Assembly (NCBI RefSeq): GCF_013839425.1
Contig: NZ_JACDNP010000003.1
Span: 62,001-126,000, forward strand
Length of the DNA: 64,000 nt
Source: Halorhabdus salina
GTDB taxonomy: Archaea > Halobacteriota > Halobacteria > Halobacteriales > Haloarculaceae
Reading direction: 5' to 3'
This document shows positions 32,484 to 35,158 of the stretch, one piece after another. The notes under the pieces were generated by a model, which was not told the DNA's origin, did no database searches, and saw only the letters and a list, made by a program, of their open reading frames with translations. How positions within the stretch are numbered: the stretch's first letter is position 1; every line of letters starts with the position of its first letter. The translations under genes were made by a program, and so were the position numbers.

Positions 32484-33689
32484 TCAGTCGGTTCGGATGA
32501 CGTCCAGGCCGTGGTTCTGCTCGACGGCATCGCGACCGCCGTCGGTTTCACCGAAGCTTCGGTCGGCGCCACTGCCAGCATCGGTGCCGACGTTGCTGGC
32601 GGCGTCGAAGGAAGTATCCTCGACGTCGACGTCCTCGATAGCTTGCCGGGACTTGTTGGCCTGCTTCTGGGTCGTCGGGCCCAGGACCTGGGCCGACTGG
32701 ACACCGGTCATGATTGCCATGACGCGGACCTTGCCCTTGTACTCCTCCTCGATGCGGGCACCCCAGATGACGTTGGCGTTGGCCTCCAGGCGGTCGGTGA
32801 TATTACTCGCGATCCCCTCGGCCTCGTCTAAGGTCAGGTCGGGGCCGCCCGTGATGTGGACCAGGCCACCCGACGCGCCGCGGTAGTCGACGTCCAACAG
32901 TGGGTGGTTCATCGCGTCGGAGACGACCTCTTCGGTCTTGTTCTTGTCCTGGGTCTCGCCGACCAACATGACGGCAACACCGCCCTGGTTCATGATTGCG
33001 GACATGTCCGCGTAGTCTAGGTTGATCAGGCTCGGCTGGGTAATCGTCTCGGAGATGCCCTTGACCGTCTCGGCGATGATCTGGTCCATCACCGAGAAGG
33101 CCTTGCCGATCGGCAGGTTCGGGACGTAATCGAGCAAGCGGTTGTTGTCCAGAACGATGATCGAGTCGGCCTCGCCACGGAGCTCTTCGAGTCCTTCCTC
33201 GGCTTTGACCGTCCGGGCGCGCTCGACGTTGAACGGCGTCGACACCATGCCGACGACGATCGCGCCTTGCTCTTTGGCGATCTTCGAGACCACGGGGGCC
33301 GCACCAGTCCCGGTCCCGCCGCCCATGCCGGCCGTGACGAACACGAGATCGGCGTCGCCCAGCACTTCCTTGATCGTGCCCTGCGCCATCTCGGTGGCGC
33401 GCTCGCCCATCGATGGGTCGCCGCCCGCACCGAGGCCGTTGGTCAGGGACTTGCCGACGAGGATCTTCGTGTCGGCCTGGATCATCTTGAGGTGCTGTTT
33501 GTCGGTGTTCAGCGCGATCGTCTCGGCGCCGTCGACGCCGATGTTGTACAGCCGGTTGACGGTGTTGTTACCGGCACCCCCACAGCCGACGATCACGATG
33601 CGCGGGTCGCCGAACTCGTCACCGTCGGCGTCGACCTCCCGGCTTTCCTGTTCCTCGTGTTCGAGGGCCGAATTGACAATGTCCTGCAT
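32484..33689 (-). CDS. ftsZ1: Cell division protein FtsZ1
   Basis: 401 residues of tubulin-like GTPase that builds the division ring. The GTPase domain starts [17 protein letters not shown] (31-47), with the tubulin signature [12 protein letters not shown] (121-132) and the synergy-loop region [11 protein letters not shown]. The C-terminal tail after about residue 345 is acidic and ends [11 protein letters not shown], like the FtsZ1 clade whose tails end in GLDVIR. It follows the RHH gene by 3 bp, so the two share a transcript and probably the repeat-bearing promoter region upstream. Confidence 0.95.
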
Positions 33690-33692
33690 GGT

Positions 33693-33881
33693 CTACACCT
33701 TCGCCCACGTGCGCCGCTTGCGCTTTTCGGATGGGCGCTCCTTGCCGGTCTCTTGCTCGGCTAGCATATCTCGAACGGCCGCCCGGATCGCCTCGCTCCG
33801 GTTGGGGTATTCCCCCGTTTCGACCATTCGCTCGACCTCCTCGATCTGCTGCTTCGGAATCCGTAGTGTCACACGCTCCAT
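33693..33881 (-). CDS. Ribbon-helix-helix DNA-binding protein upstream of ftsZ1
   Basis: The 62-residue CopG/NikR-type RHH protein begins with the DNA-reading strand [19 protein letters not shown], followed by helix-turn-helix [17 protein letters not shown] and a basic tail [10 protein letters not shown]. Such dimers bind short repeated operators. Five GTAAGAC/GTCTTAC copies lie just upstream (33901-34057), a candidate autoregulatory site. With ftsZ1 3 bp downstream, this protein may set FtsZ1 levels. Confidence 0.82.
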
Positions 33882-33900
33882 GTTTATTGTTCCCCTTTGG

Positions 33901-34057
33901 GTAAGACGGACGCAGCGAGTCGCCCGCTCGTCTTACACACAAGAACCGCCAGACAGCGGCCGGTTGCGCCCGGTACGCCACTGTGTAAGACAAGCCCGTC
34001 TTACGCATTACCGTACCACAGAGTGTGGGACTATAAAGGTTTCCCTGAGTGTAAGAC
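33901..34057 (-). promoter_or_regulatory. Cluster of five GTAAGAC/GTCTTAC operator-like repeats
   Basis: GTAAGAC occurs at 33901-33907, 33985-33991 and 34051-34057; its complement GTCTTAC is at 33930-33936 and 33998-34004. The 33985/33998 pair forms an inverted repeat with a 6-bp spacer. Three copies extend to GTGTAAGAC. The cluster fills the gap between the RHH-ftsZ1 operon and the RHH/zinc-ribbon gene. A TATA-like CTATAAAGG lies at 34031. Confidence 0.7.
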
Positions 34058-34109: not shown

Positions 34110-34646
34110 TCACTGATCAAGCACGTCAGCAGCTGGCGTCCGACGACCGCAGCTCGGACAGAACCCCCAGTCCGACCGAAGTTCGTCGCCGCACTCACAG
34201 AAGATGCGACGCGATGCTTTCTCCCCGCAGTTCGGACAGTAGACGTGATCTCCCGAGACTGTCTCGCCACACTGTGAGCAGGTCCGTTCGCCGCCGTTGG
34301 TTTCCGGGTCGATACCAGCCGCTTCCTCAGCCGTCCGTTCGGCCGTCGGTTGTGGAGTCGATGTCGATACGGCTTCTTCCAGGGCGATGTTCACGTTGAC
34401 GTCCTGGGGCTCGGGCTGTGGTCGGAAACGCCCGTCCAGCCGGTCATCAAGGACGGCGTCGACACGGTCCGCGATGAGCTCGTCGAGACTCTCTTCGGCG
34501 GTGGCCGATTCCGTCTGAGTGGGCTCGGCTGTCTCGCCGTCGAGGTAGGCTCGCAACGCCTCGCGCATGACCTCGCTCTTGGAGGCGTCGAAGGTCTCCA
34601 ACCGATCGACGAGGTCGTCATCAGCGCGGAACGTGATCTTGCTCAT
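34110..34646 (-). CDS. RHH domain fused to double zinc ribbon
   Basis: The 178-residue protein starts with a ribbon-helix-helix unit, [19 protein letters not shown]...[14 protein letters not shown] (1-37). An acidic, Thr/Pro-rich linker of about 75 residues follows, then two zinc ribbons: [19 protein letters not shown] and [18 protein letters not shown]. The architecture suggests a DNA-bound regulator that recruits a partner through its ribbons. It lies upstream of the RHH-ftsZ1 operon on the same strand, separated by the repeat cluster. ATG at 34646 is preferred to 34658. Confidence 0.75.
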
Positions 34647-34774: not shown

Positions 34775-34801
34775 TCCCACCGGGCCTACGTTGGGGTGCA
34801 A

Positions 34802-34875
34802 CCGCCCTTAGCTCAGACTGGTAGAGCAGTCGACTGTAGATCGACTTGCCCCCCGTTCAAATCGGGGAGGGCGGA
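34802..34875 (+). tRNA. tRNA-Tyr (anticodon GTA)
   Basis: A 74-nt cloverleaf. The acceptor is CCGCCCT/AGGGCGG with discriminator A, the D-arm has AGCTCAGACTGGTAGAGCA, the anticodon stem TCGA/TCGA encloses CTGTAGA (anticodon GTA), and the T-arm is CCCCGTTCAAATCGGGG. CCA is not encoded. Its last 21 nt plus the first 6 flanking bases recur exactly 141 bp downstream. Confidence 0.95.
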
Positions 34876-35158
34876 CTCGTTCTGACGCCGACTGCGACCG
34901 AAGGGAGCCAGCGGCGTCTGTCGTGTAACCCACGACCCGATTTCGTGCTCGGAAGTCGCAGCCGACGAACGTAGTGAGTCGGACCGTCTTCCGGTGTTCA
35001 AATCGGGGAGGGCGGACTCGTTTTGTCGACGTAACACGTCGACTGTCGAGTATATCACTCCCCGATTTGAGCCTGGAAGTCGCAGCGGCCGAGCGTAGCG
35101 AGGCCGACCGTCTTCATCTGTTCAAATCGGGGAAAGAAAACGACGCAAGTAACGAGAG
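34876..35158. repeat. Palindrome array with a duplicated tRNA-Tyr 3' end
   Basis: The 27-nt text covering the tRNA-Tyr T-loop to 3' flank (34855-34881) is repeated exactly at 34996-35022, and a partial copy (GTTCAAATCGGGG) lies at 35120-35132. Between them are stems 34884-34890/34912-34918, 34920-34925/34931-34936 and 35025-35032/35036-35043. Two large nested hairpins span 34936-35008 and 35060-35132. Both carry the text GGAAGTCGCAGC...GACCGTCTTC, and the second has an 11-bp outer stem CCCCGATTTGA/TCAAATCGGGG. No gene is supported. Confidence 0.8.

Follow-up and report, generated by a model that had tools for sequence, protein, structure and literature searches.

The locus lies on the minus strand of the window (the whole 64,000-nucleotide stretch of Halorhabdus salina DNA that was analysed) and comprises three genes, with cdrL directly upstream of cdrS and cdrS directly upstream of ftsZ2:

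32484–33689, minus strand: ftsZ2 (TIGR00065, 401 bits)
33693–33881, minus strand: cdrS, a 62-residue ribbon-helix-helix (RHH) regulator (NF058555, 118.5 bits against a cut-off of 100; Pfam RHH_1)
34110–34646, minus strand: cdrL, an N-terminal RHH domain with a C-terminal double zinc ribbon (PF24252 CdrL_M, 37.2 bits; DZR; RHH_1, 21.3 bits)

The FtsZ protein encoded here shares 82% identity with the FtsZ2 that accompanies cdrS in Haloferax mucosum, 48% with H. mucosum FtsZ1 and 44% with the FtsZ1 of its own genome. The second gene of the operon, taken for ftsZ1 in an earlier sequence-only reading of this DNA, is thus ftsZ2; the 62-residue RHH protein that the same reading placed first is CdrS, scoring above the NF058555 cut-off. 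All three CdrL domains (RHH, CdrL_M and double zinc ribbon) exceed their Pfam cut-offs, and the SKITFR start and zinc-ribbon cysteines are nearly invariant in a 34-row CdrL alignment (A1). An AF2 model of CdrL (mean pLDDT 70.6; helices at 10–18, 23–39 and 54–73) found no PDB match with Foldseek at E ≤ 0.001 and therefore adds nothing beyond Pfam. The genes, their order and their restriction to the class match the cdrL-cdrS-ftsZ2 locus as described in the available text of Darnell 2020 (PMC7439475) and Liao 2021 (PMC8406309). Likewise an RHH regulator of a division gene is aCcr1 of Sulfolobales, against whose family (NF053762) the N-terminus of CdrL (34110–34646) scores 22.5 bits, below the cut-off of 60. 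A toxin–antitoxin RHH operon was rejected, there being no toxin neighbour and the gene beside the RHH gene being ftsZ2. How the dose of division proteins is set in archaea with FtsZ rings is poorly known.

Upstream of cdrS the window carries five exact GTAAGAC heptamers, which we name from A to E in minus-strand reading (A 34057–34051, B 34004–33998, C 33991–33985, D 33936–33930, E 33907–33901). They are listed here with the promoter and leader elements predicted around them:

34051–34057, plus strand: box A, upstream of the TATA box, predicted to span about −49 to −43 relative to the start
34032–34037, minus strand: TATA-like TTTATA, from reading of the sequence
34005–34010 (about 34007 ± 3), minus strand: predicted transcription start, placed by a TATA-to-start spacing of about 29 nt
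33998–34004, minus strand: box B, 5' half of an inverted pair and 5' strand of predicted RNA stem P1
33985–33991, plus strand: box C, 3' half of the inverted pair and 5' strand of predicted RNA stem P2
33930–33936, minus strand: box D, predicted RNA partner of C
33901–33907, plus strand: box E, predicted RNA partner of B, with a GGGGA Shine-Dalgarno-like run immediately downstream
33882–34007, minus strand: predicted structured 5' leader of cdrS-ftsZ2, about 125 nt, containing B, C, D and E
34004–33996 with 33909–33901, minus strand: predicted stem P1, ends read from the sequence
33991–33979 with 33942–33930, minus strand: predicted stem P2, ends read from the sequence

The sequence-only reading had described the heptamers correctly as five exact copies in alternating orientation, of which one pair (33985–34004) is inverted about a 6-bp spacer. 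The number of GTAAGAC copies across the window is ordinary (6 against 3.8 expected, with at least 6 in 15 of 100 shuffles), and it is their clustering that is improbable: five of the six fall inside 157 bp, for which the Poisson probability is about 6e-13 per given 157-bp stretch and about 4e-8 once multiplied by 64000 starts. Clustering and conservation together rule out a chance origin of the array. The extended form GTGTAAGACG proposed earlier is exact in two of the five copies and the other three deviate from it; among 604 boxes, 590 are followed by G or A, and the base before the box is mostly T or C.

Conservation in relatives, which had been set beforehand as a test of the array, was assessed from several directions. 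A CdrS query returned 80 named loci, two of which (L021 and L022) were dropped because the upstream region was cut, which left 78 with 300 bp of upstream sequence. Each of the 78 has no fewer than three exact boxes, and 76 have the exact B/C pair. A further 30 loci (L112–L141) were fetched with the motif pattern itself, and the unbiased figures are therefore those from the 78 CdrS-query loci and from 194 Halobacteria genomes; in all 30 pattern-fetched loci cdrS lies just downstream. The pair pattern GTAAGACN{3,7}GTCTTAC occurs in 188 of the 194 genomes, at a single place in each, against 2 of 194 for a reversed-pattern control, and the six genomes missing it have a pair at cdrS in which either one arm is degenerate or the spacer is 2 bp. 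Over the phylum, the pair is found in 51 of 53 Halobacteria and in 3 of the 241 genomes from outside the class (control pattern 17 of 241; counted by eye), and CdrL_M in 41 of 53 against 0 of 241. Exact boxes occur in 144 of 144 distinct promoters, pattern-fetched loci included, with 583 copies of GTAAGAC where 3 are expected, 65 of GTATGAC (3 expected) and 12 of GTCAGAC (4.5 expected). The outcome that would have refuted the sequence-only reading, absence of the heptamers from relatives, did not arise. In the cdrS-ftsZ2 array we see a regulatory element for archaeal cell division, single-copy and class-wide, that is very likely an RHH operator. The genes of the locus and the binding of CdrL at the cdrS promoter in Halobacterium are already known; a literature search (open-licence PMC, bioRxiv excluded) turned up neither the GTAAGAC operator, nor its retention in the absence of CdrL, nor the leader structure.

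Spacings were counted from the B/C pair in 148 promoters, six promoters without an exact pair being left out. The spacer of the pair is 4 bp in 128 of the 148, and 6 bp in the window and one other. A TATA-like element starts 30–33 nt upstream of B in 118 promoters and 37 nt upstream in 12, with none found in 18. With the start site calibrated on Haloferax ftsZ1 (site at −50 from the ATG published in the available text of PMC8406309; TATA start at −37), the TATA position would put transcription initiation about 3 nt before box B. Further upstream, a GTA[AT]GAC box lies 45–80 bp from B in 131 of 148 promoters (51–53 bp in 107 of the 131), in either orientation; among the 117 promoters in which this box and TATA could both be located, 103 have 12–14 bp between the end of the box and TATA. 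GTATGAC is the main box variant and belongs to the zone of box A in 56 of 64 cases. Box E is exact in 141 of 148 promoters; for D, the DNA box is degenerate in 47 promoters and was not located in 19. The box-to-box distances (B–C 11 bp, A–B mostly 52, D–E mostly 31–32) would lie near whole helical turns. That the boxes fill the promoter, as first described, holds for the single box upstream of the TATA box; the other four fall downstream of the predicted start, outside the promoter proper. Separately, a CdrS-type GTCTGAC/GTCAGAC box is seen between D and E in six loci (L060, L072, L073, L082, L100 and L110; at about −46 to −42 relative to cdrS), and in opposite orientation in L098.

The sequence-only reading had CdrS alone occupying all five boxes and repressing its own operon. 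CdrS is certainly available for such a role, being encoded in 194 of 194 genomes, and the half-site is one base away from the CdrS-type GTCAGAC, with like pairing across N4. We derived this CdrS-type site, GTCNGAC, from the published CdrS targets ftsZ1 and dacZ, independently of the published logo: in all seven Haloferax ftsZ1 promoters GTAAGAC is absent and GTCNGAC-N4-GTCTGAC lies 12 bp ahead of the TATA element, and all seven Haloferax dacZ promoters carry GTCAGAC. The Haloferax ftsZ1 operator thus resembles the array in its inverted heptamer pair with N4 and in having a box near TATA, but differs from GTA[AT]GAC at box position 3 (C instead of A). CdrS-type boxes hidden within the array were rejected on the count of GTCAGAC given above, which also speaks against CdrS alone, as do the binding and deletion data. 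In the available text of PMC8406309, 18 ChIP sites are listed for Haloferax CdrS and the cdrS promoter is not among them. ChIP-seq in Halobacterium salinarum, a species whose own array is not among the sequences identified in our genome set, instead gave the region upstream of cdrS-ftsZ2 as the only reproducible CdrL site (available text of PMC7439475). According to the same source, deletion of cdrS in Halobacterium lowers ftsZ2 mRNA 1.3- to 2.2-fold, which would be activation rather than repression, and leaves ftsZ1 unchanged. A simple CdrS autorepressor is not supported by these observations and we consider it unlikely that CdrS reads the array alone, although autoregulation of the RHH-ftsZ operon as first proposed is possible. 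The base at box position 3, A in the array and C in the CdrS targets, may serve as a one-base code that keeps the two apart.

The single CdrL ChIP site is paralleled by the single pair per genome and by the class limit common to the array and CdrL, and would fit an operator for CdrL only. The available text of PMC7439475 does not contain the word 'motif', and neither there nor in that of PMC8406309 is a GTAAGAC operator or leader RNA mentioned; for CdrL, whose site is absent from the papers searched, the array provides a candidate operator that can be tested and that occurs once per genome in the class. The sign of CdrL action is not readable from the Halobacterium cdrL mutant because it carried second-site mutations (PMC7439475, available text). 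Genomes without cdrL bear directly on this reading. A search with alignment A1 found CdrL in 377 of 391 genomes; of the 14 without it, two also had no CdrS match and one had its upstream contig cut, leaving 11 that are informative (G478, G611 and G597, where CdrS was not found, and G602, with its upstream cut, were left out of the argument). All 11, from seven genera, retain the exact B/C pair and box E, so that an array confined to CdrL-bearing genomes can be discarded and CdrL cannot be the only reader. In two genomes of one genus that both lack cdrL (G560 and G026), no difference is seen at the 35 box bases, against 42 differences at 168 bases outside the boxes (Fisher p=1.6e-4), and two of the five boxes lie upstream of the TATA element, pointing to selection on the array that includes the boxes upstream of TATA. 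Pooling three cdrL-less pairs gives 0 of 84 box bases differing against 68 of 527, two of the three pairs being singly not significant. An operator read by CdrL only is accordingly quite unlikely. Persistence of the array in all 11 of these genomes is, conversely, a point for CdrS, which is encoded in every one of the 194 genomes and is the likeliest other reader, although the Haloferax ChIP does not show it there. Natural losses of cdrL offer a test of which protein reads the array. In one cdrL-less genome (G182, locus L251) box D reads GTAGGAC, and it is intact in the congeners G586 and G525 with cdrL; the change possibly reflects relaxation after cdrL loss.

A third RHH regulator, such as a haloarchaeal NikR, was also considered. 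The E. coli nikA operator contains GTATGAC/GTCATAC, a site which we take to be bound by NikR; the array boxes share its GTANGAC pattern, and the exact GTATGAC half-site occurs in the arrays mainly at box A. Among solved structures, NikR ranks with the closest relatives of CdrS, and NF058555 detects 2–8 RHH-like stretches per genome from which such a reader might be drawn. The half-sites of the NikR operator, however, start 21 bp apart, as opposed to 11 bp for the B/C pair in 128 of 148 promoters and 13 bp in the window, and CdrS, at 62 residues, is presumably too short for the nickel-binding domain of NikR. A third reader would have to be near-universal, and the CdrL ChIP site at the cdrS promoter (PMC7439475, available text) again argues otherwise; we regard this as highly improbable.

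The boxes downstream of the predicted start would also be transcribed, and the sequence-only reading missed the leader RNA structure that they can form. The window leader (33882–34010) folds with a minimum free energy of −51.6 kcal/mol (z −2.5), with B–E and C–D paired. Of 141 leaders, 133 pair B with E at a probability above 0.5 and 8 pair B with C at this level; a B–C hairpin as the main RNA fold is disfavoured by this figure and by a lack of covariation in its flanks. Pairing between box flanks was compared with permuted partners, promoters without a located D or E being left out. The C–D flanks of 75 distinct promoters with exact D show 333 paired positions against 283 in permutations (sd 9, maximum 313 of 1000), those of 31 promoters with degenerate D show 211 against 180 (maximum 195), and the B–E inner flanks (n=58) show 161 against 142 (maximum 156); the permutation controls gave no pairing excess for the B–E outer, B–C and D–E flanks. 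Sliding the partner lowers the paired fraction from 0.65 to at most 0.47, from 0.89 to at most 0.57 and from 0.75 to at most 0.56. On the FtsZ2 tree, with non-Watson-Crick rows left out, there are at least 9, 15, 11 and 11 Watson-Crick pair-type switches at stem positions 2–5. Excess pairing could in part reflect relatedness, of which the sliding and tree tests remove a part and permutation none. Counting against the leader model, RNAalifold on a MAFFT alignment (A2), which shifts D in some rows, recovers only B–E with a covariation term of −0.11, and an Rfam search of the leader gave no family above any gathering score. Box D has decayed as a DNA box in 47 of 148 promoters, yet its flank keeps pairing with C, an argument that its role is in the RNA. 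The evidence that four of the five boxes double as leader RNA stems is good but not final.

Covariation of the C–D and B–E flanks, including the flank of the decayed D, could also be taken to mean that the boxes are primarily RNA pairing partners and that DNA binding is incidental. Box A is difficult to accommodate on those terms: it is the identical heptamer, sits upstream of TATA and occurs in either orientation. Moreover, B, C and E are invariant in sequence rather than covarying, and CdrL is found at the cdrS promoter by ChIP (PMC7439475, available text). A primarily RNA role is therefore very unlikely.

We consider it probable that the array is an RHH operator read by CdrL together with CdrS or another universal RHH protein, with half-sites that double as the strands of a two-stem leader RNA. 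GTAAGAC would be the half-site for a NikR-type RHH dimer. Box A, placed like the CdrS-type half-site at ftsZ1 upstream of TATA, would be activator-like, and the inverted B/C pair just after the predicted start would be repressor-like. Where cdrL is present, CdrL is most likely the reader, and CdrS or another universal RHH protein would also read the array. In the transcript, B would pair with E and C with D, so that a two-stem leader closes the 5' end beside the Shine-Dalgarno region; because this pairing uses the same letters, the DNA operator and the RNA structure would share bases. The leader may in this way influence translation or stability. A ribosome-profiling study reported that the mRNA of cdrS-ftsZ2 and its occupancy by ribosomes diverge as cells grow (available text of PMC8303175); the structured leader could explain this divergence and offers a structural candidate for the post-transcriptional control inferred there. 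More tentatively, the heptamers might be read twice in a stricter sense, in DNA as a GTAAGAC-N4-GTCTTAC operator at +3 to +20 and in RNA as a four-box toggle between B–C with D–E and B–E with C–D pairing. Through such a toggle, possible but doubtful, FtsZ2-operon transcription would be coupled to translation or stability of the message.

Further upstream, at 34800–35135 of the window, a tRNA-Tyr-like gene precedes cdrL and is followed by two extra copies of the tRNA 3' end (GTTCAAATCGGGGAGGGCGGACTCGTT and one shorter), the sequence between the copies being similar. The upstream tRNA-Tyr is still present in the cdrL-less loci that were scanned. In one small genome, a second CdrL-like RHH stretch (36.8 bits; G021:C81:15720-15944, locus L236) lies just upstream of cdrL.
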